Below, one piece after another: positions 2,203 to 63,479 of a stretch of DNA of 64,000 nucleotides. The notes under the pieces are model-generated. The model saw only the letters and a list, made by a program, of their open reading frames with translations, ran no database searches and was not told the origin of the DNA. Position numbers and translations under genes: made by a program. Each line of letters starts with the position of its first letter. Position 1 is the stretch's first letter. The stretch is from Amoeboaphelidium occidentale (Eukaryota > Aphelidiomycota > Aphelidea), in the NCBI GenBank assembly GCA_023515795.1, contig JALGPX010000048.1:1-64000 (forward strand), written 5' to 3'.

Positions 2203-2682
2203 ATTGAGAAGATAAGTGCTTCCAATTTCAAGTCGTGCGGCTGATTGGTACTTGGTCGTCTGATTACCCACAGAGCGCGAATGATAGTGACTTTGCACCA
2301 GATTTTGAAGTTTTCCTTCAAGCTATCGCCACACACTGGCGTCATTGTCGAACATGTAAGCATACAAAACAACTATCCTTCGTGCCTTTATCCGACGTGC
2401 AAGACCTTCGTCAAGCTTAGTTGTGCTAGATATCACATTAGAAGGACAAGATGCTCCTTATGACATTTTTGTTTTTCATTGGTCACTACCCTGTTAAAAA
2501 ATCCAAAACCTAGATTTATCCGCACTTGGTTTCTCTTGATAGAACGTAAGTCAAGAAACACGTGTGATCAGGAAAGAAAGTTAAACCAGAAGTCGGCAGA
2601 GATTTCACCAGGCAAAACACCATTTTAGTTTGAGATATTCATTCTTGTCTATTGTGTAATTTGCCTCCAAAAATGCGAATGA
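2203..2682. other. Intergenic, 480 bp
   Basis: This is the shared 5' flank of the Crinkler-like gene and the 3' flank of the FNT transporter gene. Only short frames without ATG or similarity occur. I see no repeat or RNA fold. Confidence 0.5.
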
Positions 2683-3843: not shown

Positions 3844-4196
3844 AATAAATAATGCGTATCCTTCGGGAAGATATTCCGTAAATAAGGTTTAAGAAGATTC
3901 TAAACTGAGCCGTAACCAAAAAGCTTATCGATCTCCACAAATCTATAAATTGTTTCGAGCCATGCTGTCTTCACAATGCGAAGAGTGATCAGCATTAAAG
4001 GCTACAACATATTCATAAGAATAACGAAAGGTTTCATTGGACCACTCTTGGAAACAAAGACGTGCGTAATGTTTGAAGCCTTCAAGACGTACAAACTCTC
4101 TTAATCAAAGCACTTAACGGCAACTAAAGACCCCGTAGTTTGAGTATCGTGTTTATTGGATGCGCAATATGAGCACAAAAGTACATTTCGTATATC
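3844..4196. other. Intergenic, 353 bp
   Basis: It lies upstream of the FNT gene and downstream of RPS16, both on the minus strand. It is AT-rich with no supported coding frame, repeat or RNA fold. Confidence 0.5.
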
Positions 4197-4813: not shown

Positions 4814-4940
4814 TTTTCGATTTGGTAAAAAAATTTTCTGCTGATCGGACCGAAGCGATGCAACAAGAGCGCTGCGATTACGAAAAAATTCAATTCCGCT
4901 TCAGTGAAACAAGCAGCGACGCACAGAGGAACATTCGATC

Positions 4941-5439
4941 ATGGCGACTACGGCAAATTCAGGGATTCAGACTTTACTGGAAGCAGAAAAGGAAGCTGCA
5001 AAAGTTGTGGCAAAAGCTAGACAATGTTGGTTTCCTTCTTTTGAATGGTTCAAGTGGAGAACATTACTAACTTTTACTATTTAAGATCGAGTTCAAAGGT
5101 TAAAAGATGCAAAGACTGAAGCAGTTAAAGAGATCAACACTTTAAAGGCTCAGAAGGAGAAGGAATATGAGGATATTTCAAAGAAGGTTGGATTCTTCTA
5201 ATTTAAGTTGATTTCTGATGATTTATAGTTGTCTGCTTCGGATGCCACAAGCAAAGTCGATGTAGAAACTGATGAAAAAATTAAGGCACTTAAGGAGGCT
5301 TTCAATAAGAACAAAGATTCCGTAATTCAGAAGCTTCTTGATACCGTTTGCAGAGTAGAGCCAAGCATTCACGTAAGACCCATTTTATTGTCTTAATGTA
5401 TGCTTATCATTTACATTGTAGCCAAACTTGAGACAATAA
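4941..5439 (+). CDS. VMA10: V-type H+-ATPase subunit G
   Basis: Four exons (4941-5025, 5086-5186, 5229-5372, 5422-5439) give 115 residues beginning MATTANSGIQTLLEAEKEA and ending SIHPNLRQ. Length, the AEKEA..VVAKAR N-terminus and the continuous charged helix match subunit G, which forms the peripheral stalk of the V1 sector with subunit E. The exon 1/2 junction rebuilds AKARQYRVQRLKDAK. The introns are 60, 42 and 49 nt; the first has a TTACTAAC branch site. Divergent from RPS16. The role is acidification of vacuole and endosomes. Confidence 0.93.
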
Positions 5440-5711
5440 ATTCAATATCTTTACTTGTTCGATGTTGTAAATGGTTGCGAAGTCGTAAAAGTCAGTTCAG
5501 AATTTAAGAAGACTTGTCTTCAAATCATTATACGAGAATCAAACCTCCCTGTCTTCTCGATATTCTGACCTGGTTGGCTCTCTCCCGTTGAGCCTGATCC
5601 TCTGTGTAACAGCAGTCTGGGCCTGATTGGCCGTTTCACGGGTTGACATTTTGCAATGACACCAACCAGTGTTATTCCCCAACCATATTGTTCTCAAACT
5701 AACGAGCTCTC
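5440..5711. other. Short intergenic region with a doubtful 36-codon minus ORF
   Basis: An ATG at 5649 on the minus strand opens 36 codons (stop at 5539-5541) beginning MSTRETANQAQTAVTQR. It could be the first exon of a tiny spliced gene, but I could not recognise a family or a convincing continuation. Confidence 0.2.
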
Positions 5712-7547
5712 ATGGAATCATCCGAAGACAAGCTATCATCTTTACCAGAAAGAGTATACGCACAAGGCAAGAACGTGAAGCGTTTGTCAATAGGTCGTGA
5801 TAACCAACCTGTGTCATACATTCAAGCAAACGGTAAAGCACAGAAGTCACCAGATAGACCTCTTTCTGCTGATCCTATCAGAGGATTGCCTACATCAGGA
5901 TCTGGTGTTCATCGTCGTTCTCTAACAACAAACAACACTACTACTGGTTCTGGCTCCGGTCTTGGTTCTGGTTCTGGTCATTTAGCTCACGCTCACGCTA
6001 ACAGTCACACTAATCAGTATCTTGACTCTCCGCGTTATGAAACTGATTTGGCATCACCAAACTCACCAAACAATTACGCCAGACGCGTTCAAGATTGGCG
6101 TGCAGTTGGATCACCTAGACGTGCTTCCTATGCTCCTGGTTCTGCTTCTTTCAGTGCACAATCTCCGTTGTTTGGTCCTTCACCAATTGAAACGTTTAGT
6201 TTGAGAAATGGTTTCGGTAGTAATGGTCAAGGAATCACTAATCCTCCACCAGGTTTCGGTTCACCTTTGGATAAATCACCTCAACATCAACATCAACATT
6301 TGCAACAGCAACAACAGCATCCATTGCCTATTTTTCAATACTATCGTGGCAGAGAACATGGTACACGTTCATTCTCTTTATCATTGAAACCGCAAGATGG
6401 CGATGATCAAGATGATTACTTTTTATCATCACCACTACGTCAAGCTGTACATAATCATAACTCTGGTAGTCAGCAAAATCGAAATGGAAGCATTAGCAGT
6501 AATCGTCATGCTCAAAACAATTACGATTTCGATCAAGATGGCGAAGTTGATGAAGAAGATGCATTAGAATCAAAATCATGGGCTAGAAGAATGACATCTT
6601 ACTCGCCATCTCCATACAATACTTCAGGTGTAAATAGCTCGAATAATTCAAGAAGATTACAACAACAACAACACCAGCACCAAAATCTCGATCATCATCA
6701 TCATCATCAACATCAACAAGATCAACAACAACAACAACAACAACAATGGAACTTTCGTAGACAATCTTACTCTATTGGTGCACCAACAGCACTACCTCCT
6801 CTACCAAAACCAGTTCAATCTACTTCTACATCGAATGCTGATTACTCTCTTGTCGACTCAAAGATGAAGGATCTTTCTCTGAATTTCCAACTAGACACTG
6901 TCCCTAGTGGCTTCATGGAAAATTACGGAAATCTATTTGACAATACAACTCTAGGCAAAGACAATCCTAAACTCCGCATGTATGTTTCAAATAATCCCGT
7001 GGATCCTACTTCTGGTTCAGAAGAAGTTTCATACATTGTCGAATTCAAGCGAGGCAGAACCGATGTATTCCGCTGCAACAACACTGCTGGAGAAGGAGTA
7101 AAGTATAAAGAAGGAGATTTAGTAATTGTAGAAGCAGACAGAGGCGAAGACCTGGGCAAGATCATTGCAATAATTGACACTTTTACGAGTGCAACAACAA
7201 CAACAACAACGAATAAGAAACTTCTACTTAGACTTGCTTCTAGATCAGAGTGCAACATGCTACTGGATAAACACCGCGATGAATTGAAGGCTTTGAGTAT
7301 CTGCCAAACAAAAATCAGACAGAAACGCCTGGATGAAATAATGGAAGTTCTGGATGCAGAGTATCAATGGGACAGAAAACGCTTAACTTTCTTCTATCTA
7401 TCAGAAGATCGAATTGATTTTAGAGATTTAGTCAAGGATCTATTCAAAATCTACAAGACGCGTATATGGATGTGTTCAGTGGATAGACAATCACAGGGAC
7501 AGGGACAATCACAGGGACAATCACAGGGACAGGGACAGGGACAATAA
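5712..7547 (+). CDS. PSP1 C-terminal domain protein with long Q/N/H/S-rich N-terminus
   Basis: The 611-residue protein has about 420 residues of low-complexity sequence (Gly-Ser, His and Gln runs) followed by a PSP1/YaaT-type domain near residues 430-590 ([68 protein letters not shown]). Fungal and trypanosome PSP1 proteins are cytoplasmic RNA-linked factors. The exact role here is unknown. The tail is a run of QSQGQG repeats encoded by a 6-bp minisatellite. The copy of this tail after the N at 7607 has a different repeat number and an earlier TGA, so the C-terminus is polymorphic between haplotypes. Confidence 0.8.
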   Translation: MESSEDKLSSLPERVYAQGKNVKRLSIGRDNQPVSYIQANGKAQKSPDRPLSADPIRGLPTSGSGVHRRSLTTNNTTTGSGSGLGSGSGHLAHAHANSHTNQYLDSPRYETDLASPNSPNNYARRVQDWRAVGSPRRASYAPGSASFSAQSPLFGPSPIETFSLRNGFGSNGQGITNPPPGFGSPLDKSPQHQHQHLQQQQQHPLPIFQYYRGREHGTRSFSLSLKPQDGDDQDDYFLSSPLRQAVHNHNSGSQQNRNGSISSNRHAQNNYDFDQDGEVDEEDALESKSWARRMTSYSPSPYNTSGVNSSNNSRRLQQQQHQHQNLDHHHHHQHQQDQQQQQQQQWNFRRQSYSIGAPTALPPLPKPVQSTSTSNADYSLVDSKMKDLSLNFQLDTVPSGFMENYGNLFDNTTLGKDNPKLRMYVSNNPVDPTSGSEEVSYIVEFKRGRTDVFRCNNTAGEGVKYKEGDLVIVEADRGEDLGKIIAIIDTFTSATTTTTTNKKLLLRLASRSECNMLLDKHRDELKALSICQTKIRQKRLDEIMEVLDAEYQWDRKRLTFFYLSEDRIDFRDLVKDLFKIYKTRIWMCSVDRQSQGQGQSQGQSQGQGQGQ

Positions 7548-7808
7548 AGAAATAGAAAAGGAAAAAAGTAGATGAACAATACTAATAATACTAATAATAA
7601 TAATAANTTGATTTTAGAGATTTAGTCAAGGATCTATTCAAAATCTACAAGACGCGTATATGGATGTGTTCAGTGGATAGACAATCACAGGGACAATCAC
7701 AGGGACAGGGACAGTGACAATCACAGGGACAGGGACAGGGACAATAAAGAAATAGAAAAGGAAAAAAGTAGATGAACAATACTAATAATACTAATAATAA
7801 TAATAATA
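7414..7808. repeat. Duplicated contig-end overlap around the N at 7607
   Basis: Sequence 7414-7606 (end of the PSP1 gene plus 3' flank) is repeated from 7608 to about 7808 with a different number of ACAGGG units. The single N marks the join. The second copy is best read as the other haplotype of the same locus. Downstream, 7772-7961 is an Asn/Gln/Thr-codon-rich leader of the ISWI gene with no recognisable domain. Confidence 0.8.
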
Positions 7809-7961
7809 AAAGCATACATAAAAGATCTCTTCACAATAATACAACAACAACAACAACATCAACAATATCAACCAATCAGATGATGAATCACAACTACTAC
7901 AACAACCAACAACAAACAACAAACAACTCCAATCTTTTTTCTTTTCCAAAATTGAACAAGA

Positions 7962-10900
7962 ATGAACAGAAAGGAATTTAACTCACAAATTTCCTCTGAT
8001 TCCATAAACAGATTAAAATTTCTGTTGGGAGAATCTGAATTATTCCAACACTTTTTAAAAAAGACAACAGGAGACAAGGAAGAAGTAATTTCAGAGAAGA
8101 AATCTACAAAAGAAAAGAAGAGAAGAACTGAAAAGGAAGAAGATGAAGAATTACTACAACAAGAAACTGAACAGGAATTACCTTTTAATACTTCTAAAAC
8201 CGCTGTTATAACAAAATTTGATGAGTCACCTTCTTATATTCACAATGGAGTTTTGAGAGAGTATCAAATAGAAGGATTGAATTGGTTGATTTCTTTGTAT
8301 GAGAATGGCCTATCAGGAATATTAGCAGATGTATTTATAGATTCTATTTATAGATTTAACTATTTTATTTATAGGAAATGGGTTTGGGTAAAACACTACA
8401 GACAATATCATTCCTTGGTTATTTGAAACATTACAGAGGAATTAATGGTAAACATATGATTCTTGTTCCTAAGAGTACTCTTAATAATTGGTGTAATGAA
8501 ATTAAGAAGTGGTGTCCTTCTTTTAAAGTATTATTGTTGCAAGGAACAAAGGAAGAACGACAACAGATTTGTAAGACTCAGTTATTAGGAGGTGATGGTG
8601 GTGGTGATTGGGAAATATTGGTGACGTCATTTGAAGTATGTCTACTGGAAAAAGCATCTCTTAGAAAGATCATGTGGCAGTATATTTGTATTGATGAAGC
8701 ACACAGAATCAAGAATGAGAATTCCTTATTATCACAAATAATGAGAACGATTCAGTGTAGAAACAGATTATTATTAACAGGCACACCGTAAGTTGTTGTT
8801 GTTGTATTCTTAACTTTTAGATTGCAGAATAATTTAAAGGAGTTGTGGGCTCTTTTGAACTTTTTGGTTCCTGATGTGTTTTCTTCCTATGATGATTTTG
8901 ATGAGTATTTACAACAGACTTCTACTTCTACTTCTGCTTCTTCTAATTCTACTTCTGATGGTAGTGGTGGTGGTGGTGGTGGTGGTGGTGGTGACTCAGT
9001 TATTATTAGACAACTTCACTCCATCCTTCGTCCGTTTCTGTTGCGTAGATTGAAGTCACAGGTTGAAAAGAGTTTATTGCCAAAGAAGAGGATTAATTTG
9101 TATATTGGGATGAGTGATATGCAGAAGGAGTGGTATAAGAAGATATTGTCAAAGGATGTTGAGTCATTGAATGGGGTTGTTAAGGATACTAGGGAGGGGA
9201 AGACTAGACTGTTGAATATTGTTATGCAGTTGAGAAAGTGTTGTAATCATCCGTATCTGTTTGATGGGGCAGAACCACAGCCATTTACTACAGACCAGCA
9301 TTTGGTTGATAATGCAGGGAAGATGGTTCTGTTGGATAAGTTGTTGTTGTTGTTGAAGCAGCAGGGGTCCAGAGTTCTGTTGTTCTCGCAAATGTCTCGC
9401 ATGTTGGATATTCTTGAGGATTATATGGTATGGAAGGGTTATCAGTATTGTAGGATTGATGGGCAGACATCGCATGAGGATCGTGTTAGGGATATTGATG
9501 AATTCAATAGGGAAGGATCGGAAAAGTTCATTTTTCTGCTGACTACTAGAGCAGGTGGTTTGGGTATTAATTTGGCAACTGCTGATTCTGTTATAATGTA
9601 TGATTCAGATTGGAATCCGCAAGTTGATTTACAAGCTGAAGATCGTGCTCATCGTATTGGTCAAAAGAAACAGGTTGTTGTGTTTCGTTTTGTCACAGAG
9701 CATGCTATTGAAGAAAAAGTTATTGAGAGAGCAGCATCAAAGTTGAGATTGGATCAATTGGTTATACAACAACAATTGGCAAACAACAATGCTCAAATGT
9801 CTGTTGCGGAACAACAGAAATTGGGCAAGAATGATTTGGTTGGAATGATTAGACATGGTGCAGCAGATTTGTTCAAGAATAATTCTAGTGATGATCAATC
9901 ATCAAAGATTATGGAATTGTCCATTGAAGAAATTCTGAAGAAGGGTGAAGAACGTACAAGGACTCTGGAACAGAAATTCCAAAAGTTTGGTTTGGATGAT
10001 TTACAGAATTTCTCTTTGGATTCACAGAATATGTATCAGTTTGAAGGAAAGGATTTCAAATCAGGTGCAAATGATTCAGGAGCAGTTATTGCACAGGATT
10101 GGATTGCGCCAATTACAAAGAGAGATAAAGGTTTTAATGCAGATGGTGCATTAATGTCTACTGGTGGCGGCGGTGGTTATCAGAATGATTCCACAAGTAA
10201 CAACAAACAACCTAAACCTCCACGCTACATGAATGCACAAGAGTATCAATTGTATCCAAGCCGTTTGTATGAATTGCAAAAGAAGGAATTGTATGCTTAT
10301 TGGAATGAAGTTGGTTATAGATTGCCTAACTCCAGTCCAGAGAATGAATTGATTAGTGTTTCTATTCCTCTGACTGATGAAGAACGTACTGAATTTGAAC
10401 AATTGAAATTGGAAGGATTTCCTCACTGGACAAAACGTGAATATGGATTGTTTTTAAAAGCGTGTGAAAAGTATGGCAGAGATCAATTGGATGCAATCGC
10501 GCAGGAAATTGAAGGCAAGACTAAAGATGAAGTTATGAAATACTCTCAAGCTTTCTGGAAACTCTATAAACAATTGAGTGATTATCAAGCAATTATCGAA
10601 AAGATTGAAAAGGGTGAAGAAAAGATTAGAAAACGTCATGAAGTTCAACAATTGCTAACAAAATTATTGCGTCAGTACAAATTCCCAAAGGAACAATTGT
10701 ATATTCCTTATGGTACAAATACAAAAGGAAAGAACTACACTGAAGAAGAAGATAGATTTATGATTGTCCAATTGGAACGTTTTGGGTATCAGAATGAAGA
10801 TTCCTATGAACGCATCAGAGCAGAGTTCCGTAAGGATCCTTCCTTCAGATTCGATTGGTTTATCAAGTCAAGAACTGCTAGTGAATTGGCACGAAGATGT

Positions 10901-21692: not shown

Positions 21693-22748
21693 CTATGAAT
21701 TATCATTTGTAAAGTAATCTTCAATTATCTCATGATCAAGCCATCCTCTTGTTCGTTCTTTTAGAGGTAATTGTTTCAGAAAAGGATGTTCCAGTGCTTC
21801 ACCTGCAGTAGGTCTGTCTTCAGGTCGCCACGCCAACAGTTTTAGTAGAAAGTCTTTTCCATTATCAAAAAGCACTGATCCCTTTCTTATGGTTTTAGTA
21901 ACTTCATCGTATCTTGATGCATACTGGCTGTAATACCAAAGAGGATAATTTCTTCTACGTGGACCACTAATCTTGAACGGATCTATGTGGTAACAGAATC
22001 TGTACAGCACAACTCCAAGAGCCCAAATATCATTAGCCTTTGCAACTTCTATAGGATTATCAGGGCATTTACCAGTAACGTGTTGCTTTAGCATTTCTGG
22101 AGATACGTGTTTTCTGGTGCCATAGTTTAAACCACAATAGAAATGATTAGTGCCTCCAAGGCCAAAATCAATTAGCTTAACTTGTTCAATTACATTACTA
22201 CCATCATCTTGGGATAATTGTGTCACCAAGATATTATCTGTTTTGATATCATTATGTGGTAGATTAACAGCAGGATCATGAAGTGTACGCAATGCTACCA
22301 AAACATCTCTAGCAATAATAGCCATTTGGTATTCCACATCAAAGTAATTCCACGTATACAGAACATGTCCAAGATCACCGTAAGGATAATACGGGAATAG
22401 AATCTCTGCAGAAGATGCGTTCAACTTTATAGGCATAACGATATTCGTAGCATCAGGCGCAATACCAACAGAGAGAAGTCGAATCTTCAGTGCCACATAG
22501 AATTGTATTTCTCTGTTCAGAATTAATAGCTCGCTTTCTTTAGAATTCTTGGTAGCGTGTTTTATCACAAATTCTCTGCTGCTGCTATGATCATCATGAT
22601 CTTGCACTGTGCACTTTGTCACTGCGATATTGTGATTTCGTGATAATTCTTTGCAGTTTGTTGCGCGTGGTAGTATCACAAAAGAGGGTGTGCTACTGAC
22701 CGCGTAGAACGGCCAAAGGAAAGGCAGCAGAGACTTAATTGCAACCAT
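21693..22748 (-). CDS. Secreted HND-type protein kinase, array copy 1
   Basis: The 351-residue single-exon protein starts with a hydrophobic signal peptide (MVAIKSLLPFLWPFYAVSS). A protein-kinase fold follows without a recognisable Gly-rich loop: EFVIKHA (K63), hinge FPYYPYGDL, catalytic loop LPHNDIKTDNILV (H165, N166, D167), DFG 194-196, SPE, and NDIWALGVVLYR. Asn replaces the Arg of HRD, so this is a non-RD kinase that would not rely on activation-loop phosphorylation. No transmembrane segment follows the signal peptide and there is no ER-retention tail, so secretion or endomembrane lumen is inferred. It is one of four tandem genes in the same orientation. Confidence 0.8.
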   Translation of the reverse strand: MVAIKSLLPFLWPFYAVSSTPSFVILPRATNCKELSRNHNIAVTKCTVQDHDDHSSSREFVIKHATKNSKESELLILNREIQFYVALKIRLLSVGIAPDATNIVMPIKLNASSAEILFPYYPYGDLGHVLYTWNYFDVEYQMAIIARDVLVALRTLHDPAVNLPHNDIKTDNILVTQLSQDDGSNVIEQVKLIDFGLGGTNHFYCGLNYGTRKHVSPEMLKQHVTGKCPDNPIEVAKANDIWALGVVLYRFCYHIDPFKISGPRRRNYPLWYYSQYASRYDEVTKTIRKGSVLFDNGKDFLLKLLAWRPEDRPTAGEALEHPFLKQLPLKERTRGWLDHEIIEDYFTNDNS

Positions 22749-22877
22749 CTTCAATACCCCGCAACTGGAATTTTGACAGATGAAAATGAAAACTGGATAG
22801 TGGATACATTAAATGCTTTTCGAGATATTATCCGAGAGATAATTTTATCTTTCTATTTGTTCGCAGAGGTCCGAGGT

Positions 22878-23936
22878 TTAAGAATCTTCTTCGCCCTTGA
22901 AGCAATTGAAACAGCTGCCTAAAAGACTTTTCTTCTTGCGTTGATTTTGCTCCTCAATATACTGTCTACGCTCATGTTTTATCCGTATGAAGTAAGGATG
23001 CTGTCGAGCTTGCGCTGCAGAAAGGCGCGCTGTGTAGTCCCATTGTAGCAGTCCTAATAAGAATTCTTTGAAGTCTTCCCGAAGATATTTACTGTTTGAG
23101 ATCCTTTCACATATCGCGAAATGATCTTTCCGGTATTTTTCAATTACCCGCTTAGAAAGCCTATCCAAGTCTTCCTCAAACATAAAAGGCTCATGCAGAA
23201 AAATGAGCCTATAAAGTGTAACACCAAAAGCCCAAATGTCCGACTTTGTTACTGCCTCATCGTAGTTAGCATAGCACATATTTAAAGTGTAGCAAAGTAT
23301 TTCTTCTGGAGAAAAATATCCTACGGTTCCCTCGATTTGGAATCGTTCATTGTTTCGGTTTCCTGCTCTTTCAAAGTCAATCAGTTTCACCCTCGTGATC
23401 TGCTTTGTCTTACTCACAGAAGCCACAATAATATTGCTAGGTTTAATATCATTGTGATGTATTTGTAGTGGAGAATCATGAAGCACCACAAGAGCATTTA
23501 GAATATCTTGAACAATCACAGGAACTTCGTTTGGGATAGACATTGGTTGGGAGCTTTCAGCGGAGTAAGACTTTAAGTCGCCATGCGGATAATAAGGAAA
23601 TACGATAATTCCATCTTTGGCGCTGTAGTTCAGCGGCAAAGCGACTCCAAAATCTTCTGCATCAGTTTCGGTCTCAGCGAGTCTTTCTTCGATTCTACGC
23701 AGTGTTCTTAACTCCTTTCTCGTAGCCTCAAGTGTTTTTGCATCAGAAGGATTAGAAGGACTCTTGATAATGAAGAATTCGTCTCTAAGAGATCTAATCT
23801 TGCACTTTGAGATCAGGTTGAAGAAGCCGTGTTGTATCACCGAGCACTTATGAATATCACCATTCTCCAATAAAGGCACCGCAAGGAACAGCGGCAGTAG
23901 TATCAAGAGTAATAAAGCATGCTGAATTAAAGCCAT
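22878..23936 (-). CDS. Secreted HND-type kinase, array copy 2 (DFE variant)
   Basis: The protein has 352 residues in one exon. The signal peptide is strongly hydrophobic (MALIQHALLLLILLPLFLAV). Kinase landmarks are FFIIKSP (K58), FPYYPHGDL, HHNDIKPSNIIV (HND 161-163), SPEE and SDIWAFGVTLYRLIF. The metal-binding DFG is DFE (187-189), which often weakens or alters Mg binding, although Lys and catalytic Asp remain. It ends with a basic, Cys-containing tail (KKKSLLGSCFNCFKGEEDS). It is most like copy 3 in the DFE change. Confidence 0.78.
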   Translation of the reverse strand: MALIQHALLLLILLPLFLAVPLLENGDIHKCSVIQHGFFNLISKCKIRSLRDEFFIIKSPSNPSDAKTLEATRKELRTLRRIEERLAETETDAEDFGVALPLNYSAKDGIIVFPYYPHGDLKSYSAESSQPMSIPNEVPVIVQDILNALVVLHDSPLQIHHNDIKPSNIIVASVSKTKQITRVKLIDFERAGNRNNERFQIEGTVGYFSPEEILCYTLNMCYANYDEAVTKSDIWAFGVTLYRLIFLHEPFMFEEDLDRLSKRVIEKYRKDHFAICERISNSKYLREDFKEFLLGLLQWDYTARLSAAQARQHPYFIRIKHERRQYIEEQNQRKKKSLLGSCFNCFKGEEDS

Positions 23937-23980
23937 AAAGTCGTTTTGAAGAGAAAATATAGCGCGTTACATCGATCTTC

Positions 23981-24253
23981 ATGAACTTACCCCTGAAAAC
24001 TAGCAGCAACCACGTGGGCAAGCTTACGCCAAAAAAGGCTCTTAGAAAAAATTTCACAGACCTCTTCTTTAAAGAAAACGCGCTGATATTATTAAAGCTG
24101 CTGAGAACGCTTGGTAGAGCAAGAACGGGCCTTGGTTTGATTGTTTCAACGCTCGAGAAATATCTTCGTAAAGGCCTAAGCACATTTAAGAATTACACCA
24201 TTAATACTATGAGCGATGTTAGATTTATTGATATCTTGCGCCAAAAGCAATGA
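23981..24253 (+). CDS. Possible small basic protein between array copies 2 and 3
   Basis: An ATG-started 90-codon frame (MNLPLKTSSNHVGKLTPKKA...) fills most of the 334-bp gap between two minus-strand kinase genes. It is Lys/Arg/Leu rich and resembles no family I know. It may be chance, because the gap must also hold the promoter of copy 2. Low support. Confidence 0.25.
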   Translation: MNLPLKTSSNHVGKLTPKKALRKNFTDLFFKENALILLKLLRTLGRARTGLGLIVSTLEKYLRKGLSTFKNYTINTMSDVRFIDILRQKQ

Positions 24254-24269
24254 AGAGCGCAAACACCAA

Positions 24270-25271
24270 TTAAGCGGTCGTTTGTGCTGCAGATTCTTGG
24301 GAATTGATGAATTCTTGAATGAATGGATGATTTAATGCTTCGGAAGCAGTCAGACGCTTCCTAAAGTCCCATTCCAGAAGCATGAGTAGAAAATCCTTTG
24401 TGTTTGCACTTAATTTGGAGCTGAAACGTATTTTCCTCCAAACATGAATATACTGTCGTCTGTATTTCCAAATAGCTCGATGAAATCTGCTTGAAAAATC
24501 CTTGTTGGTAAGAGGAAAAATTTTCTCATTGAATATTAATCTGTAAAGAGTAATTCCCAGTGCCCAAATATCAGAAGCTTTTGAGACAACGCCGATTTCG
24601 CTGTAACGCTTAACATTAGTAGCACCTGATATTATTTCTGGCGACAAATAACCGATAGAACCGTAATCTCCGTCGTAAATATCCTCATGAATACCTGCTT
24701 GCTCAAAATCAATCAGTTTGACCTCTTGAATTCTTCCATCATCTCCGACCGAGGTCACGACTATGTTTTCCATTTTGAGATCGTTATGCACAAACTTAAT
24801 TCGACTGTCGTGTAGAACACTCAGAGTGCGCAGAACATCTCTGGCAATCTGTGCAACATCGTGATCGATCTTCACGCCATGCTGAGAATAGTACTGGTAT
24901 AGGTCACCATAAGGATAATAAGGGAAAGCGATTATTTCCTTAGGCGCTTCAAACTCCACCGGATAAACGACTCCCACATCTTGCGGATTGATGCCATTTT
25001 CTTCGAGAGTCTCTTTCAAATAGCTAAACTTCTTGACTTCATTAGCAATCACGCTCGCAGATCTTTCTTTGGAAGGATCTTTTGCGGCTTTAACCACATA
25101 ATAACCACCATCTAATGTGTCTATCTTGCACTTTTTCACGACAATTCTGCTGTTGCTTTGTAGATTCAGACAGTCTTTGAATACTTCAGGGTCTAACAGA
25201 GGAGTTGCATAGGCAAGAGCAACCAGGCATATCAACGCTAAGTATCTGATGGAAAGGAATCTTGAATTCAT
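24270..25271 (-). CDS. Secreted HND-type kinase, array copy 3 (DFE variant)
   Basis: The 333-residue single-exon protein begins with signal peptide MNSRFLSIRYLALICLVALA. It keeps GYYVVKAAK (K61), FPYYPYGDL, KFVHNDLKMENIVV (HND 162-164), LSPEI and SDIWALGITLYRLIF. The DFG triad is DFE (188-190). Two Cys at about 34 and 48 recur in copies 1 and 2 and could form a disulfide in an oxidising compartment. No Gly-rich loop is apparent. Confidence 0.8.
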   Translation of the reverse strand: MNSRFLSIRYLALICLVALAYATPLLDPEVFKDCLNLQSNSRIVVKKCKIDTLDGGYYVVKAAKDPSKERSASVIANEVKKFSYLKETLEENGINPQDVGVVYPVEFEAPKEIIAFPYYPYGDLYQYYSQHGVKIDHDVAQIARDVLRTLSVLHDSRIKFVHNDLKMENIVVTSVGDDGRIQEVKLIDFEQAGIHEDIYDGDYGSIGYLSPEIISGATNVKRYSEIGVVSKASDIWALGITLYRLIFNEKIFPLTNKDFSSRFHRAIWKYRRQYIHVWRKIRFSSKLSANTKDFLLMLLEWDFRKRLTASEALNHPFIQEFINSQESAAQTTA

Positions 25272-25408
25272 GAAGAAAAAAATATTTTGGAGATGTGACC
25301 TTGTAGATCAGGAGGTTTGAATTGCCCCTTGTTCCGTTAGCCACGTGAGATTAGGTTACATCCAAAAATTTTGAATTCAGTAAAAATAATCCCTCAGTTA
25401 AAGAATAT

Positions 25409-26464
25409 TTATGTTGCGGCTTTTGGTGTTGTTATGCAGCGTAGACACCTTTGCGTTATCCTTTTCTCCTTGTACTCTTGACCTCTCGGTGTATCGTGAT
25501 CATATGGTAGTTGTGTGATAAAAGGATGCTCAAGCGCTTCTGCTGCAGTAATTCGCTTGTTTCGATTCCATTTAAGAAGTTTGAGTAGAAAATCTTTGGT
25601 ATCCCGGTTAAGATTCTGGTCTTGTTTGATTTTCAAACGAACACGGTCGTAAGCATTTCTGTATCGCTGCAAAAACATGAACTGATCTTCCCCGTCCTCA
25701 TCATACAATAAATCAAATGGTTTATCTCGATAAATTAACCGATAAAGAGTAACACCAAGCGCCCAAATGTCTGCAGCTTTACCAACATCGGATAAAAACC
25801 TAGAACACTTCTTTCGAACAATTCTAGCGATGATATCTGGAGCATAATAGCCGGTCGTGCCGTACAATCTTCCACAAATGGTACGTTTAGAGCCAGCTAG
25901 TCCAAAGTCGATTAATTTAACTTGTTCAACATAACCAAAAGCAGACGTATCCGTGATGATAATATTTTCCAGTTTAATATCATTGTGAGGCATGTTAATT
26001 CTGGGATCGTGCAAGACCTCCAATGCCTGTAACACTCCACGAGCGATCCACGCAAGTTCTGTGTCGACATCGAATTCATTAGCATCATAATAATCCTTTA
26101 AATCCCCTAAAGGATAATAAGGAAAAGCCATTTCAGCCGTTTTAGATTCGAAGGCCACAGGGAAAACGATATTAACCAGTTTCTTGTCGATACCAGCCGC
26201 GTCTAGTCTCCATTCTATAGACCTGTACGCCCTGATTTCCTTGTATACTGCACTCCATTGCTCCTTATCAGTTTCATCGTTTGCGAACTTCAATATCAAT
26301 TTTATGCCTTCTGGACCTGCCAACTGACACTCTGCTACAGTTATTCCGTGATTAAAGCTGATAGTTTTGAATCTCCTCAAAGGCCCCACCAGTGATATAG
26401 GCCGGACACCAAAGACTAATTGAATAGCAAGAGGTAGCACGAGCAATAGCGAACTAAAATTCAT
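25409..26464 (-). CDS. Secreted HND-type kinase, array copy 4
   Basis: The 351-residue protein starts at the first ATG with signal peptide MNFSSLLLVLPLAIQLVFG. Landmarks are KLILKFAN (K59), FPYYPLGDL, MPHNDIKLENIII (HND 160-162), intact DFG (186-188), APD and ADIWALGVTLYRLIYRD. Copies 1 and 4 keep DFG while 2 and 3 have DFE, so the array mixes likely active and possibly altered members. It lies 137 bp upstream of copy 3. Confidence 0.8.
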   Translation of the reverse strand: MNFSSLLLVLPLAIQLVFGVRPISLVGPLRRFKTISFNHGITVAECQLAGPEGIKLILKFANDETDKEQWSAVYKEIRAYRSIEWRLDAAGIDKKLVNIVFPVAFESKTAEMAFPYYPLGDLKDYYDANEFDVDTELAWIARGVLQALEVLHDPRINMPHNDIKLENIIITDTSAFGYVEQVKLIDFGLAGSKRTICGRLYGTTGYYAPDIIARIVRKKCSRFLSDVGKAADIWALGVTLYRLIYRDKPFDLLYDEDGEDQFMFLQRYRNAYDRVRLKIKQDQNLNRDTKDFLLKLLKWNRNKRITAAEALEHPFITQLPYDHDTPRGQEYKEKRITQRCLRCITTPKAAT

Positions 26465-38742: not shown

Positions 38743-41700
38743 ATGGAATCGGACGAGCTTGGCGCTGTAGAGCCGGAATTACAATTGGAATCTTATGATA
38801 ATTCATTCCCTGTGTATACTTCACAAATGGATCCTGAAGATTACATGGCAAAGAGTGAAGCGATAATCGCAACCGCGAACTTACAGCAACTCGATAATGA
38901 ATTCAGGAAGTCCACCTCCAATGATCTGAGCTCCGAGCCTCAAATGAAGTATGAACGACTTGGTTCTTCGTTCTTGGAAATTATACAAAAGGACACAGTT
39001 TCATGCTTAGCTTACAATCCCAAATTTATTGTCATTGGAACGCATTGGGGAATGGTGCATCTATTGGATATAAGTGGAAATGAAATCAAGCGTTATGCGA
39101 GTCATGCAGCATGTGTAAATTCAATCTGTATCGAAGAAAAGGGAGACTACTTTGCGAGCGCTGGTGACGATGGTAAAGTGGTCTTGTATCAGCTCGATAG
39201 CCAAGACATTTCTGTGTATTCTTTTAAGAGAGCCGTTAAAACTGTTTCACTTGCGCCAGATTATTCTAAATCATTCAAGTTTGTCGCGGCTGGAATGTCT
39301 GGTGAGTTAGTGATGAACTCCAAAGGCTGGTTCGGGAACAAGGGCGAGACTTTGGCAGAGGGAGATAGGCCTATATACATAACTTCCTGGTATGGAAGAT
39401 TCATCGCGTGGTGTGATGAACGTGGCGTTTCTTTATATGATACAACGTCAAAGAATGTCGTAAAAGCCGTAGTCAGTCCACCGGCTGATAGTCCAAGAAT
39501 TGATCTTTACAAACCACGAATTCTTTGGATATCAGATGACAAGTTTGCAGTTAGTTGGGCTAAGACTGTTACTTTGGTACAACTTAATTCTAGTTATTTA
39601 TCTGGTTACACGTTTCCAAGCTCTATAGAAGTTGTCGCAAAAGTTGAAGTATCTTATTTCATAACTGGCATTGCCTTCCACCGGAACCAGTTTCTTATAT
39701 TAGCTTTTACAGGAGAAGAATTAAAGGACAGCGATTCTGGCGAAATCCAGACAAGCCCTCCGCCAGAAATCAGGATATTAGATTCTTCACTCACGGAAGT
39801 TGTCTGCGATTCTCTGTCTTTGAGTGGTTACGAGTTATGTCAACCAAATGATTATGCGTTAGTACCTGGAGACGATTGCTTTTATGTAGTAAGCCCGAAA
39901 GACGTAATTATGGGAAGGTCTTTTGAATCTGAAGACAAAGTACGGTGGTATTTGGAACGGGAAGAATATTTACCAGCTTTTGAGCTTGTATTAAAAGAAC
40001 CATACTCAACTTTTAACAAATTCGAAATAGGAGAAGCGTACTTGTCTAGTTTAATTGAACAGGGAAATTTCTCCGAAGCAGCAAGTAAATTGAAATTGAT
40101 TTTTGGAGAAAATAAGGAATGGTGGGATAAGTGGGCTTTCATATTTGCAGAGCGCAAGCAACTATCGGCTCTACTTCCTTATATTCCGTTGAAATCGCCT
40201 ACTTTAGATCAGACTGTTTACGAGATGGTTCTCGCATACATGTTAAAAGAGTCTCCTGAGTCGTTTTATAATGCCATATCTTCTTGGGACTCGTCATTGT
40301 ATAACTCTGAGGCCATTCTCGANTTTCCAAGCTCTATAGAAGTTGTCGCAAAAGTTGAAGTATCTTATTTCATAACTGGCATTGTCTTCCACCGGAACCA
40401 GTTTCTTATATTAGCTTTTACAGGAGAAGAATTAAAGGACAACGATTCTGGCGAAATCCAGACAAGCCCTCCGCCAGAAATCAGGATATTAGATTCTTCA
40501 CTCACGGAAGTTGTCTGCGATTCTCTGTCTTTGAGTGGTTACGAGTTATGTCAACCAAATGATTATGCGTTAGTACCTGGAGACGATTGCTTTTATGTAG
40601 TAAGCCCGAAAGACGTAATTATGGGAAGGTCTTTTGAATCTGAAGACAAAGTACGGTGGTATTTGGAACGGGAAGAATATTTACCAGCTTTTGAGCTTGT
40701 ATTAAAAGAACCATACTCAACTTTTGACAAATTTGAAATAGGAGAAGCGTACTTGTCTAGTTTAATTGAACAGGGAAATTTCTCCGAGGCAGCAAGTAAA
40801 TTGAAGTTGATTTTTGGAGAAAATAAGGAATTGTGGGATAAGTGGGCTTTCATCTTTGCAGAGCGCAAGCAACTATCGGCTCTACTTCCTTATATTCCGT
40901 TGAAATCGCCTACTTTAGATCAGACTGTTTACGAGATGGTTCTCGCATACATGTTAAAAGAGTCTCCTGAGTCGTTTTATAATGCCATATCTTCTTGGGA
41001 CTCGTCATTGTATAACTCTGAGGCCATTCTCGAACTACTTGTCGACAAAACGGAGAAGGATTCTGCTGATGTTTTTGTTCTTGAAGCGGCTGCTACTTTG
41101 TACTTGAGAAAGAATGACATAGAATCTGCCTTAGATTGTTATTTACGAATTGGAAAAGATGATGCGCTGGAGTTCATCAGTAGCTATAACTTGTATTCTT
41201 CTATATCAAAGCATTTGGAATATTTACTACAATTTGACGAGAACAGAAAGTCACGCTCACTTAAACCGATTGTTTTCGATTTTCTGGCGAAGAATGTTGA
41301 ACAGATACCAGTCTCTAATATTGTTGATGAACTGAAAGGAAAGCCCAGAAAGCTGCATGAATATTTAGATACTGTGTTCCGCAAGGATCCTCGATTGACA
41401 TCTGATTATCATTCATTGCAGCTCGAACTTTACGCTGATTATGAGCCAGAGAAGTTGATGAACTTTCTTCGAGGTGGTAGTACGTATTCCTTGGAACGGG
41501 CTGCAAAAGTGTGCCAAGATAGAGGTTTAGTTCGTGAACATGTTTATCTGTTGGGAAAGATGGGCAACAACAAAGTAGCCATGAAAATAATTCTTCTACA
41601 ACTAAAGGATTATCGAATGGCGATAGAATTTGCAAAAGAGCAGAACGATCCAGAAATATGGGAAGACTTAGTGCAGGAATCTTTCAAAAGCCCTTCTTTA

Positions 41701-42108
41701 ACCCAGAATCTCTTGATGTTTGCAGCTTCAGAAGTCGATCCCGTTTCGCTGTTGGAAAGAATGCCAGAAAATCAACCTCTCTCACTATTGAAAGATGCCT
41801 TGTTACAAATTCTAAGTGATTACGTTCTTCAGTTGTCTCTGTATGAAGGCTGCAGGCGGATATTTCTTCACGATGAATTCAACTTACTGCAGCAAATTGT
41901 GAGCAGCAGCAAAAGATGTCTCAAGCTCTCTTTCGATTCCACATGCACAGTTTGCAGCCAGAGACTCATTGATATAACGCTGAATGATCCCGATAAGGAA
42001 GAATCAATTGTTCTGTTTTACTGCTTGCATTGCTTCCACGAGAAGTGCATGTCATTCACGGAAAATTCAAAAGTCTGTGGCGCCTGCTCTTCTGTTACAA
42101 GTAACTAG
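38743..42108 (+). CDS. VPS41: HOPS complex subunit Vps41 (contains an assembly duplication)
   Basis: The N-terminal WD-like region starts MKYERLGSSFLEIIQKDTVS after an acidic leader. The clathrin-heavy-chain-like repeat and C-terminal landmarks MGNNKVAMKIILLQLKDYRM, AIEFAKEQNDPEIWEDL and a RING-H2 (CTVC...CLHC...CGAC) match Vps41 throughout. HOPS tethers late endosomes and AP-3 vesicles to the vacuole. The frame as assembled encodes 1121 residues because 39613-40322 is repeated after the N at 40323. Removing one copy leaves about 884 residues, the usual family length. The gene is intronless here. Confidence 0.95.
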   Translation: MESDELGAVEPELQLESYDNSFPVYTSQMDPEDYMAKSEAIIATANLQQLDNEFRKSTSNDLSSEPQMKYERLGSSFLEIIQKDTVSCLAYNPKFIVIGTHWGMVHLLDISGNEIKRYASHAACVNSICIEEKGDYFASAGDDGKVVLYQLDSQDISVYSFKRAVKTVSLAPDYSKSFKFVAAGMSGELVMNSKGWFGNKGETLAEGDRPIYITSWYGRFIAWCDERGVSLYDTTSKNVVKAVVSPPADSPRIDLYKPRILWISDDKFAVSWAKTVTLVQLNSSYLSGYTFPSSIEVVAKVEVSYFITGIAFHRNQFLILAFTGEELKDSDSGEIQTSPPPEIRILDSSLTEVVCDSLSLSGYELCQPNDYALVPGDDCFYVVSPKDVIMGRSFESEDKVRWYLEREEYLPAFELVLKEPYSTFNKFEIGEAYLSSLIEQGNFSEAASKLKLIFGENKEWWDKWAFIFAERKQLSALLPYIPLKSPTLDQTVYEMVLAYMLKESPESFYNAISSWDSSLYNSEAILXFPSSIEVVAKVEVSYFITGIVFHRNQFLILAFTGEELKDNDSGEIQTSPPPEIRILDSSLTEVVCDSLSLSGYELCQPNDYALVPGDDCFYVVSPKDVIMGRSFESEDKVRWYLEREEYLPAFELVLKEPYSTFDKFEIGEAYLSSLIEQGNFSEAASKLKLIFGENKELWDKWAFIFAERKQLSALLPYIPLKSPTLDQTVYEMVLAYMLKESPESFYNAISSWDSSLYNSEAILELLVDKTEKDSADVFVLEAAATLYLRKNDIESALDCYLRIGKDDALEFISSYNLYSSISKHLEYLLQFDENRKSRSLKPIVFDFLAKNVEQIPVSNIVDELKGKPRKLHEYLDTVFRKDPRLTSDYHSLQLELYADYEPEKLMNFLRGGSTYSLERAAKVCQDRGLVREHVYLLGKMGNNKVAMKIILLQLKDYRMAIEFAKEQNDPEIWEDLVQESFKSPSLTQNLLMFAASEVDPVSLLERMPENQPLSLLKDALLQILSDYVLQLSLYEGCRRIFLHDEFNLLQQIVSSSKRCLKLSFDSTCTVCSQRLIDITLNDPDKEESIVLFYCLHCFHEKCMSFTENSKVCGACSSVTSN
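39613..41033. repeat. Direct 710-bp duplication across the N at 40323
   Basis: Copy 39613-40322 and copy 40324-41033 align without indels and differ at 8 sites (4 silent; A/V, S/N, N/D, W/L). The single N sits exactly at the join. This is best explained as two heterozygous contig ends placed end to end. Confidence 0.9.
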
Positions 42109-60379: not shown

Positions 60380-61774
60380 CTAATGACGTTCTTCAAATTG
60401 TTTCCTTGCGTCGGCAAATTTGAATGATCTCGCTCTTATTAAATGCGACTCGGGCGTGTGTTGTTTGAATCCAAGCTCCGCTAGATTCTCCTGAAAAGCA
60501 GCATGCATTCCCAAAGGCATCTTCCTTAGTATGTTGATCAACGTTTCCAAACCTGTCAAGTATCCTTGATCAGGCCCATCCATGCCATCTCCTTCGTGTT
60601 CCAGCAGGTATTTTGTAACAGCCTCATCATTACTGCCAACTCCGAGTTTAGATGCGATGCTCACTTTTAAATCTTCCAAGCTGGACTTGGTGAGAGTATG
60701 TGCAAAGTCAACGATTTTTACCATAATTTCAGGCTTTGCATTCTGATTTCCATCAAAAATCAAGAGCAAACTGGATGAATAGAACCTGAAACCATACAAT
60801 CGTTTTATGCAACTATGAAGTCGTTCTAAAGAGTTCAACAGAGTGTTGTAAGTCTGCACTGCAGAATCCTTAATAGTTGGATGAGAAAGGAAAACATAAA
60901 TATTGCAGGCAAGTTCCTCTAATCCTTTCATGCGTCGTCCATGATATTTGTCTTTGTAATAAAATTGTCCATCCTGCGGACTGTATATCTGCATACCGCA
61001 TAGCCTTAGACCGTGCTCCCCACTTGTAGATTCAGACACTTTCTTCATTTGACTGTGGCATTTAGATGTTGATGCGCCGATTCCATGTTGACGAGTTCCC
61101 ATTTTTAGATCAAGGATGCAGGGATTTTTGAGATGCGCAGTCAGATCCTCCAACAATAGAAAATCGTTCTCCACTGGGCACTGATAAGAAGTTATAAATC
61201 CAGGATAAATGCTTCCATTAAGATCCAGATCAGATATTTTGGCCGTGCTAGTCAACTTATAAAATTTCAATGACCAAGGGTTTAAGTAAGGGGTATTTTC
61301 TCTTTCCAGCTCTTCAGATATATTCAATAAGCTGTCTTTATCTGTTCCATTGATTTCCTCCGGCATTCTAGTTGCGATTCTTTGTTCATCTCCGTCCATT
61401 TCGAAGACATCATCTGGACCGTCGGAAAGCACGGTTCTCCAGAATTCGTCATGAAGTCTTGATGATACATCGGACTGATGGAAAGCTTCTATCGCCAATG
61501 CATTTCTCCCTTCTGTAGGTTTTGCTCTGATTACTCCAAGATAAAGCGGTATAAACTCTTTCAATTCTCTCAACTCTATCTGCTCCGTAGCCTGTAAATT
61601 TTCATAAAAAGACTTCTCCCATAGGGACAATGGCTTGCATACTGCCTCTTCGGAGACTTTCAAGAATCTGGCATGTCCACCGACTTGATTGTTGAACGGA
61701 AGGATCTGAATAAGCGGGGAACTGTTGGATTTCGACTTTGCCGATGGGACAGATGTTCCATGCAGCCTTTTCAT
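60380..61774 (-). CDS. KCS1: Inositol hexakisphosphate kinase (IP6K/Kcs1 type)
   Basis: The 464-residue single-exon protein contains the inositol-kinase signature PCILDLKMG at 218-226 followed by TRQHG and KKVSESTSGEHGLRLCGMQI. SSSLLLIFDGN and VKIVDFAHT complete the ATP/substrate site, and YLTGLETLINIL ends the fold. The S-T-S-x-x-x-G-x-R-x-C-G-M pattern is that of IP6-kinases rather than IPMK or IP3K. It makes 5-PP-InsP5 (IP7), which signals phosphate status. Much shorter than yeast Kcs1, close to animal IP6K. Confidence 0.92.
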   Translation of the reverse strand: MKRLHGTSVPSAKSKSNSSPLIQILPFNNQVGGHARFLKVSEEAVCKPLSLWEKSFYENLQATEQIELRELKEFIPLYLGVIRAKPTEGRNALAIEAFHQSDVSSRLHDEFWRTVLSDGPDDVFEMDGDEQRIATRMPEEINGTDKDSLLNISEELERENTPYLNPWSLKFYKLTSTAKISDLDLNGSIYPGFITSYQCPVENDFLLLEDLTAHLKNPCILDLKMGTRQHGIGASTSKCHSQMKKVSESTSGEHGLRLCGMQIYSPQDGQFYYKDKYHGRRMKGLEELACNIYVFLSHPTIKDSAVQTYNTLLNSLERLHSCIKRLYGFRFYSSSLLLIFDGNQNAKPEIMVKIVDFAHTLTKSSLEDLKVSIASKLGVGSNDEAVTKYLLEHEGDGMDGPDQGYLTGLETLINILRKMPLGMHAAFQENLAELGFKQHTPESHLIRARSFKFADARKQFEERH

Positions 61775-61915
61775 AATGGTAATGTAATCAGAATGTTCTT
61801 GAAGCAGTTTAAATCGAACTTTATGGCAATGCTACAGTTCAAAGTCAAATCCACAGTGATTGATAAGAATGAAAAGGAATCAAGAGCTGCTACGTAAAAA
61901 GCTTAAATAGGTGTT

Positions 61916-61974
61916 AGTAGTATATGAAGAGCACCGAATAATGCCGTTTTTTCTTGAATGAGAATCTGTGCTAA
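61916..61974 (+). repeat. Left terminal inverted repeat (59 bp)
   Basis: It matches the reverse complement of 63260-63318 at 58 of 59 positions; the difference is G (left) versus A (right) about halfway along. Outer end AGTAGTATATG, inner end CTGTGCTAA. Confidence 0.92.
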
Positions 61975-61995
61975 TAGCATCTCCACGCCTCAAAA

Positions 61996-62062
61996 TTACA
62001 ATTGTAAACAATGGAAATTACAATTGTAACGTATGCTCAGTGCCTCGATATTACAATTGTAT
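61996..62062. promoter_or_regulatory. Three phased copies of palindrome TTACAATTGTAA
   Basis: Perfect 12-bp palindromes start at 61996 and 62018, and a one-base variant (TTACAATTGTAT) at 62051. The spacings are 22 and 33 bp, two and three turns of the helix, so all sites face the same side. They lie between the left TIR and the 3' end of the cargo gene. A binding site for a transposase or regulator is inferred. Confidence 0.55.
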
Positions 62063-62125
62063 ATCCCCTAATAAGAACTCCTAGCAATGAAAAAAGCACA
62101 AAAAGAAAGCCAGTTCATATATTTC

Positions 62126-63145
62126 TCAAGACTTCATTAGAACGTCGACTGTTTCCTTGACGTCCTTGACATAGTTGTGTAAATCATCTTCAAACTGCAT
62201 CTTGCCATCACATCTTTTGACCAATTCAACAATCTCCAATCCAACCCTTTCTATACTCTCCAACAATTTCCACTCCTGCAGCGACTTTTTCATAATATCC
62301 ATTTTGACCTCCTTTGGAGTCTTGACTGCGGCTTCCATCAATCCCGAATAGTGAAATTCGCTGTTTCCTTCGCAGAACTTGGCCACGATGTCGGGTTTTG
62401 CGTAGCCCCAAGACAGTTTTTCAATGCGAAAGTCAACAATCATTGCCTTATCACCGACTTGACCACAATTTGAGGAGTTGGTAGTGCAATCACGAAGGCA
62501 GAGAATGCGAGATATCAAATCCAATTGCAGTAGAGCAGTATTGTTTACTGTTTCCTTGGTCAGGTTGGACAGCAAGGTCAAACAGCAATCCTTGGTGGCG
62601 ATGTAGATAGTCCTCTTTGTACCGTGAGATGGTATGATGAACTGAACTTGAGGACCGATTCCAATATAGTGCAACAGCTTGTAGACGAACAGCTCTTTTG
62701 TGTCCGGTGACTTCAGACTTTTCGGATTATCTTCCGTTGGGCCATACTGATGCGTCTTAATGAAATAGCGAGCAGTTTGAGTTCCATTGCTGACATGACA
62801 AATAAAGCCGGTTTGGACGCCGCTTCTCTTTGGTGCGAACGAAATGTCATAGAGACTTTCGTCAAGGCCAGACTTGCAGTGTTGAGCGAGAAAGTGTTCC
62901 CTGACAGCAGCTTGAATAACTTCAGCGTTTCCGTCCAGATACTCTGCTATTTTGTGTAGAAGGGTCTCATAGAGTTGCTGGTCTTTGATGGGCAAATTGG
63001 GGATGAACTCGTTTTCAATCAGCTGCTTTGCAAATACAAGAGCTCTTTTTGCTTCAAGGATACGGACTTGTCCTCGCATTTTGTGAATGGTGTTTCCGAT
63101 CTCCACAAACTTGTCCCATTTCCAGCGGTTTTCTTCGTCAGCCAT
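62126..63145 (-). CDS. Transposon-borne kinase-like protein of unknown family
   Basis: The 339-residue intronless protein is the only gene between the inverted repeats. Its N-terminus is helical and charged (MADEENRWKWDKFVEIGNTI). The middle has TARYFIKTHQYGPTEDN, DTKELFVYKLLHYIGIGP, TIYIATKDC and KAMIVDFRIEKLSWGY. The order Lys on a strand, Glu in a helix and a late hydrophobic-Asp-Phe is that of protein-kinase-like folds (as in HipA or PI3/4-kinase relatives), but HRD-like and P-loop motifs are not evident, so this is only a fold suggestion. The C-terminus is helical. Function unknown; it is not a recognisable transposase. Confidence 0.75.
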   Translation of the reverse strand: MADEENRWKWDKFVEIGNTIHKMRGQVRILEAKRALVFAKQLIENEFIPNLPIKDQQLYETLLHKIAEYLDGNAEVIQAAVREHFLAQHCKSGLDESLYDISFAPKRSGVQTGFICHVSNGTQTARYFIKTHQYGPTEDNPKSLKSPDTKELFVYKLLHYIGIGPQVQFIIPSHGTKRTIYIATKDCCLTLLSNLTKETVNNTALLQLDLISRILCLRDCTTNSSNCGQVGDKAMIVDFRIEKLSWGYAKPDIVAKFCEGNSEFHYSGLMEAAVKTPKEVKMDIMKKSLQEWKLLESIERVGLEIVELVKRCDGKMQFEDDLHNYVKDVKETVDVLMKS

Positions 63146-63259
63146 CTATCTGGTTTGTCGCGATGGAGAAAAATGATGTGAAAAACGCAAAATCCATGTC
63201 CTTACACCCTCTGTCCTCTTAAAAGAGTCCATCGGGCATTTATATTTCTCCAAATTGAT

Positions 63260-63318
63260 TTAGCACAGATTCTCATTCAAGAAAAAACGGTATTATTCGG
63301 TGCTCTTCATATACTACT
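63260..63318 (-). repeat. Right terminal inverted repeat (59 bp)
   Basis: It is the partner of 61916-61974 in inverted orientation with one mismatch. The outer end (63318) abuts GGTGTT at 63319-63324. Confidence 0.92.
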
Positions 63319-63479
63319 GGTGTTCAAATACAGCGAAAAGCATGTGAATGAAATCATTGCCGTCCCACAGTTTAGCAGAAAATTGCCTCGAAAAACTCTA
63401 TTGCATTGTTTGGCTAAGCATGTTTGTTTCAGTTCGAGAGACGATTGCTATTTCACACTGAAGCAAAACATCCAGTAAA

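Follow-up and report, generated by a model that had tools for sequence, protein, structure and literature searches.

The findings presented here suggest that a small transposon of the aphelid Amoeboaphelidium occidentale carries as its only gene an atypical kinase, in which a 29-residue cassette is exchanged between copies on an otherwise constant backbone. The element lies in the first 64,000 nt of contig JALGPX010000048.1, hereafter the window, to which all coordinates refer unless another contig is named. The cassette exchange goes beyond what the first-pass annotation of this DNA had found and is the main new point. In the explanation that we consider probable as a whole, a non-autonomous DNA transposon would have inserted between two aphelid genes, its 59-bp ends being acted on in trans by a DDE/rve-type enzyme that leaves a 6-bp duplication. 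Its sole gene would be a cargo kinase from a family passed among aphelids, chytrids and blastoclads under purifying selection. Recombination between copies would replace the cassette, situated in the N-terminal helical domain, and leave the remainder of the protein constant; the cassette would determine what the kinase recognises. This explanation draws directly on the element's ends, the flanking duplication, the intact gene, the fold prediction, the conservation of catalytic-type residues, the uncoupled variation of cassette and backbone and a second copy of the gene in the species.

The cargo gene (62126-63145, minus strand) encodes 339 residues plus a stop in one open frame, and its cassette corresponds to codons 29-57 (62975-63061, minus strand), as delimited by alignments of family proteins. 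The second A. occidentale copy, P0001 (MP638_007192), was identical to the window protein in the 28 N-terminal and 282 C-terminal residues (310/310, 100%), and all differences were confined to residues 29-57, where identity was 21%. Similarly, P0002 and P0080, a pair from metagenomes that is close to A. occidentale, shared 94% of the backbone (169 positions) and 25% of the cassette. The reverse arrangement was also found: P0027, P0029 and P0061 carried the window's 29 cassette residues unchanged on backbones that were 61-65% identical, although P0027 and P0029 are not independent, their backbones being 96% identical. Family-wide analyses were performed on an alignment of 121 proteins. Among the 6,302 of 7,260 pairs that shared at least 200 positions, 279 (from 49 proteins) showed at most 45% identity in residues 29-57 yet at least 80% elsewhere; when the segment was moved along the protein every 4 residues, no placement clear of the cassette gave more than 8 such pairs. 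In 105 pairs picked because their backbones were at least 85% and their cassettes at most 45% identical, identity dropped at residues 26-29 and was back at 58, with cassette positions 36, 42 and 51 constant. A correlation scan of 76 nearly complete, non-redundant proteins (77 of the 121 rows met the coverage filter) gave the lowest correlation with the rest of the protein for segment 26-55 (0.41, against 0.77 for 1-30, 0.76 for 6-35 and 0.72-0.86 for segments from 51-80 on), and segments 26-55 and 31-60 had the lowest mean identity (0.38). Pairs of the opposite kind, with at least 93% identity inside a segment and at most 70% outside, numbered 12 in the cassette and up to 75 at the catalytic core (211-240, mean identity 0.80). 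The cassette stands apart in being shared intact despite a variability greater than that of any other segment, and in differing between copies that are otherwise alike. The protein database was clustered at 90%, so that same-backbone copies stay separate only if they differ elsewhere; the position scan treats all positions alike, and the bias leaves identical cassettes in divergent backbones unaffected. A common NPQ insertion just before the cassette was noticed in P0002, P0003, P0013 and P0018, though these proteins fall in two clades.

Comparison of these sequences indicates a cassette that is most likely transferred at the DNA level, as a module. If the cassettes were instead alternative exons of one gene, the exchange would take place in RNA or in gene models rather than in DNA. 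Some gene calls do start exactly at the left cassette border (P0008, P0026 and P0033 at MRG, P0053 at MRR), where some hosts may have an intron. We nevertheless consider alternative exons improbable, since the window gene has a single cassette in a single open frame and P0001 lies on a separate contig of 1,355 bp. Furthermore, L031, a contig filed under a Proteobacteria metagenome-assembled genome and taken as eukaryotic, carries both cassette classes in tandem in one uninterrupted frame, with a 30-bp direct repeat at 126-bp spacing. A search of the genome for a stored second cassette, using the other cassette as query, also met this locus alone. This and all other genome searches covered 204 A. 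occidentale contigs (11,314,846 bases), and copy counts are therefore lower bounds. The assembly is reported to comprise 951 scaffolds and 13,559,732 bp with a GC content of 39.93 (PMC10608142), and the same paper uses for this species the locus-tag prefix MP638 that P0001 bears; about 747 scaffolds, presumably mostly small, would lie outside the set searched, as does the contig of P0001. Reading the cassette DNA in other frames or in antisense did not yield the other cassette.

The predicted model consists of an all-helical N-terminal domain (residues 1-92) followed by a kinase-like domain (about 93-339), and the cassette is predicted to form helix 2, the following loop and the start of helix 3. 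The swapping of this segment between otherwise divergent copies suggests a changeable recognition part, and the cassette may set the recognition of the kinase, whether of a partner, a target or a rival allele. Kinase-type residues are conserved, and K130, E151, D219, N226 and D238 are candidate catalytic residues, with putatively assigned roles. The first-pass label 'kinase-like' was borne out by the predicted fold and not by sequence families. The gene product had no match in Pfam at E≤1 or in PADLOC, and matches in NCBIfam (E 0.012, 15.1 bits against a cut-off of 220) and PHROGs (E 0.037) were weak. As a single protein query it had no match by sequence in the PDB, and the best PDB match by profile, a dynein chain (E 0.047), was taken as chance. 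Plain Foldseek against the PDB placed p38 first (TM 0.24, root-mean-square deviation 14.6), and a re-alignment was relied on instead. In this second look, which re-aligned Foldseek's own candidates only and barely probed the N-terminal domain (1-69) for known folds, actin-fragmin kinase, CtkA and HipA ranked above the other entries. The best matches in a library of viral folds, with TM-scores of at most 0.43, included giant-virus kinases and two phage proteins that are uncharacterised. The gene product is thus predicted, with a confident fold model, to be an atypical kinase that falls in the HipA/CtkA/actin-fragmin-kinase class by fold and in no curated sequence family. It shares with this class the predicted fold and, apparently, the order of the candidate catalytic residues, and differs in its added N-terminal helical domain with the exchanged cassette; the D219-N226 stretch is, we assume, two residues longer than in HipA. 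The kinase family is unnamed; four family libraries were tried, none of which covers it, and nothing on it turned up in the literature library searched.

Because of the kinase fold and the conserved kinase residues, we regard the gene as cargo and not as a transposase. The same two features oppose the idea that the encoded protein is itself the recombinase moving the element, which its position as the only long gene inside could suggest; to our knowledge, no kinase makes target-site duplications, and we give this idea almost no credence. The kinase might also act as a single-gene selfish driver that protects or poisons by matching cassette, in the style of toxin-antidote systems or spore killers, with cassette diversity kept by competition. 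The presence of two cassette types on alike backbones, both in the window protein and P0001 and in P0002 and P0080, would fit such a driver, as would HipA, a toxin kinase, among the nearest folds. Moreover, Spok proteins are described as killers that also contain a kinase domain, which resistance requires (PMC6660238), and these spore killers are likewise fungal selfish genes with inferred cross-species transfer. The same source describes a nuclease domain and about 700 residues or more for Spok, and by this description the window protein (339 residues, no Pfam match, a helical part and then a kinase-like domain) is set apart from them. Since no killing domain, antidote gene or phenotype is known here, and a fold match does not show function, we consider the driver unlikely.

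The insert that carries the gene spans positions 61916-63318 (1,403 bp including both inverted arms) and has AG...CT termini. Its terminal inverted repeats (TIRs) occupy 61916-61974 on the plus strand, starting with AGTAGTATATG, and 63260-63318 on the minus strand, ending with CATATACTACT; the arms are 59 nt long, complementary at 58 of 59 positions (98%, one mismatch) and separated by 1,285 nt. The target-site duplication GGTGTT stands immediately outside each arm (61910-61915 and 63319-63324). When the coordinates were re-read, the first-pass description of a 59-bp inverted repeat with 58/59 identity flanked on both sides by GGTGTT proved exact, and the single non-transposase gene of 339 residues reported inside it was found as one long, intact open reading frame (ORF). 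By a simple estimate, the chance of an exact 6-bp match at both ends is about 1 in 4,096. The inverted arms are not a chance occurrence, because, even with three mismatches allowed, the initial 21 nt of the TIR matched solely these two sites in the 64 kb, while 100 shuffles gave an expectation of 0.00. In addition, all 24 exact 18-mer inverted pairs lying 30 bp to 5 kb apart in the window came from this TIR pair. The host site, an intergenic stretch of about 300 bp, lies between the IPK ORF (60380-61774, start codon at 61774; IPK by Pfam) and the 3′ end of another ORF (63480); the element gene and both neighbours are all on the minus strand. With its TIRs and flanking duplication, and with a kinase-like gene as the only long ORF and no transposase gene, the insertion has the features of a non-autonomous TIR transposon. 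It is a real, structurally complete TIR element with a kinase-like cargo gene, and it is apparently recent.

Comparison with relatives suggests that the gene family was passed horizontally among aphelids, chytrids and blastoclads rather than being paralogous. The nearest named relatives, from chytrids and a blastoclad, were 68-78% identical to the window protein. The best copies reached 68% in Obelidium, 69% in Gorgonomyces, 73% in Globomyces sp. JEL0801 and 52% in Homolaphlyctis (labelled Hompol1), against 44% (over 31% of the length), 33%, 34% and 36%, respectively, for the adjacent IPK. The conserved GUF1 protein of the window was at most 52% identical to its relatives, save for one unnamed match at 98%, among the best 120 of 7,999 candidates scored. 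In global alignments, the window protein was 73.1% identical to a Batrachochytrium dendrobatidis copy, which was itself 48.4% identical to that of Homolaphlyctis, and the Globomyces pollinis-pini and Coelomomyces copies were 89.6% identical over 308 residues. A FastTree tree built with the cassette removed (117 of 121 rows; rows covering less than 60% of the backbone were left out) nested A. occidentale among chytrid and blastoclad sequences. The GC content at third codon positions of the gene (0.512) was the highest of 37 window ORFs (the other 36: mean 0.371, sd 0.046, maximum 0.484; z 3.06; two of 39 ORFs, 1089-1544 and 7962-8426, were left out). The window copy sits on a 73-kb contig amid other aphelid genes. 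Against L031, synonymous divergence (dS) was 0.56 and nonsynonymous divergence (dN) 0.113 over 307 codons with the cassette excluded; the ratio of 0.20 therefore indicates purifying selection. Of the 53 pattern matches in GTDB contigs, 2 were confirmed as relatives (L031 and L032); viral contigs gave 1 and 151 pattern matches to kinase relatives, none confirmed, and plasmids gave no match to them. A phage match (one phage, two records) at thymidylate synthase, with E 8e-3, was taken as chance. L032, on a contig labelled Cytophagales, encodes at 6765-8864 a 699-aa protein with a signal-like N-terminus and a distant version of the kinase domain; by eye, its neighbours are elongation-factor-4-like and methyltransferase-like ORFs.

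Among candidates for the mobilising enzyme, a Polinton-type integrase ranked first; we propose it tentatively, as unproven. Duplications of 6 bp are described as typical of the rve integrases of polinton-like viruses (PMC12220804). The 204 contigs contained nine rve matches, seven of them over the cut-off, and PolB at two places; on contig C12 an rve integrase and PolB lie less than 1 kb apart, and integrase copies on C104, C183 and C71 are 85-90% alike. The element thus shares its 6-bp duplication with Polinton/Maverick elements and polinton-like viruses, and integrases and PolB are resident in the genome. Polintons end AG..CT, as the insert does. In contrast to Polinton/Maverick elements, it is only 1.4 kb long, has a 59-bp TIR rather than one of hundreds of bp, lacks integrase, polymerase and capsid genes, and has no TIR in common with the pieces read. 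Since the rve integrase and PolB do not lie inside it, we have not filed it as a Polinton. The C12 piece that holds a Polinton-type integrase next to PolB (C12:66001-76000) also contains large N runs. The first-pass annotation had named IS3EU as a possible mobilising superfamily, which the termini do not fit: 6-bp duplications are usual in IS3EU, yet its complete families are described as ending TA..TA, and GingerRoot termini as mostly TA..TA and occasionally TG..CA (PMC10045372). The element has the 6-bp duplication common to both, together with AG..CT termini and no transposase inside. According to the title of a reference cited in PMC12730594, hAT6 is a group with 6-bp duplications; the searched contigs gave six hAT matches (hAT dimerisation domain) and three MULE matches, and Pfam found no hAT in the element. 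Fungal DNA transposons carrying TET/JBP likewise contain a non-transposase gene, there a dioxygenase gene described as tied to transposase genes (PMC12730594), whereas no transposase is present here. Elsewhere in the genome (C21:10173-18545, positions 173-8545 of locus L054), 8.4 kb between 35-bp inverted repeats (94%) held matches to a type-B DNA polymerase and a MULE-type transposase. By eye, GNAT-like and helicase-like ORFs were also seen there and no target-site duplication was recognised; this stretch may be an element that replicates itself and carries a MULE transposase.

Several results weigh against transposition in trans of a horizontally passed cargo kinase. The first-pass annotation had proposed a selfish gene-spreading unit, with a single genomic copy as the outcome that would speak against it, and the TIR pair was indeed found once in the 204 contigs, a lower bound for an assembly of 951 scaffolds. 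No such TIRs surround the gene in L031, the sole close relative with readable DNA, where the best inverted pair is 19 nt long and 84% identical. BLAST of the TIR against ten genome pieces, the Polinton-bearing ones included in part, gave chance-level matches of at most 20 nt; the shared breakpoint of the integrase copies, considered as a Polinton end, lies at the end of the coding region instead, and Polinton ends were thus not identified. Less similar copies of the gene are also present (Globomyces pollinis-pini 48%, Obelidium 49%, Phlyctochytrium 46%) and several tree nodes are weak. The dS against L031 gives no date by itself, and old paralogy or assembly contamination could mimic part of the horizontal signal. 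In the same 204 contigs, the kinase gene occupied one locus, and no autonomous relative or other TIR copy was found; one further TIR site on contig C34 at 3 mismatches was taken as chance, as a reversed-pattern control gave 3 sites. An exact 19-mer of the TIR had no match in viral contigs.

The single TIR copy and the TIR-free gene of L031 would also be expected from a one-off capture, in which a horizontally mobile kinase gene that spreads otherwise was packed between small-transposon ends in A. occidentale. P0001 may argue against this, being identical outside the cassette and lying on a contig near the length of the element, and we regard such a capture as possible, if doubtful. Returning to transposition in trans, we consider mobility of the TIR unit likely. 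The sole readable close relative lacks such TIRs, so that TIR packaging is not shown to be a general trait of the gene family. Of the proposed gene-spreading unit, the apparent horizontal spread of the gene family stands, while mobility of the TIR element as a unit is not established.

Upstream of the start codon, a stretch of about 60 bp in the element (63180-63239, minus strand) corresponds to the left end of a dispersed, Helentron-like repeat family of this genome, with matches at sixteen other places in the searched contigs (76-100% over 35-75 bp). Seven of these loci were read further, and in them the matched part was the left end of repeats of about 1.56 kb (three loci), 1.85 kb with an internal duplication (one) or 0.28-1.2 kb (three). 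Directly after a T, the left end starts with GCCCGATGGAC or a similar sequence. In 6 of the 7 loci, GTCCATCGGGC or a variant near to it lies about 55 bp before the right end, and the right end is CTAGT in 5 of the 7. The family resembles Helentron/Helitron2. Internally, about 55 bp from the right end, the repeats carry the left end in inverted copy; small hairpins were seen there by eye, and no long ORF common to the repeats was noticed. Since the element gained a piece of a repeat from the same genome, it probably resided in this lineage at that time. Downstream of the gene, between its 3′ side and the left TIR, the palindrome TTACAATTGTAA occurs three times within 61996-62062 (exact at 61996-62007 and 62018-62029, with one mismatch at 62051-62062). 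At up to one mismatch it has five matches in the window, two of them outside the element, against 0.30 expected, and none of 100 shuffles reached five; these palindromes are possible protein-binding sites. Two further observations concern the rest of the window. By eye, the region 21693-26464 contains four neighbouring ORFs that are kinase-like, 333-352 aa long and hydrophobic at the N-terminus, and that resemble a local array of secreted kinases. The ORF at 38743-42108 contains an undetermined residue, after which the segment before it recurs nearly unchanged; this has the look of an artefact of scaffolding across a gap.

In our judgement, little is known of the genes that pass between phyla of zoosporic fungi or of what carries them. 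Here the ends of a one-gene unit can be read; its kinase-like protein is conserved, and a cassette with sharp borders is exchanged in it while the rest is constant. This cassette points to the probable seat of specificity and opens a search for the partner or target. A more far-reaching picture, which we hold to be rather unlikely, is that of a eukaryotic selfish kinase gene that spreads horizontally and whose allele-specific recognition cassette is traded between copies and species as a DNA module; its versions would compete or pair by cassette type, and small transposons that virus-like integrases mobilise in trans would carry it. In the specificity subunits of type I restriction systems, recognition segments are described as likewise swapped between conserved borders (domain movement, DOMO; PMC3077401). 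Those subunits are bacterial and recognise DNA, whereas the protein described here is eukaryotic and kinase-like, with a helix-loop cassette of 29 residues. If it is true that the cassette sets the compatibility of copies, this family would be a eukaryotic analogue of the swapping of specificity segments in bacterial restriction systems.
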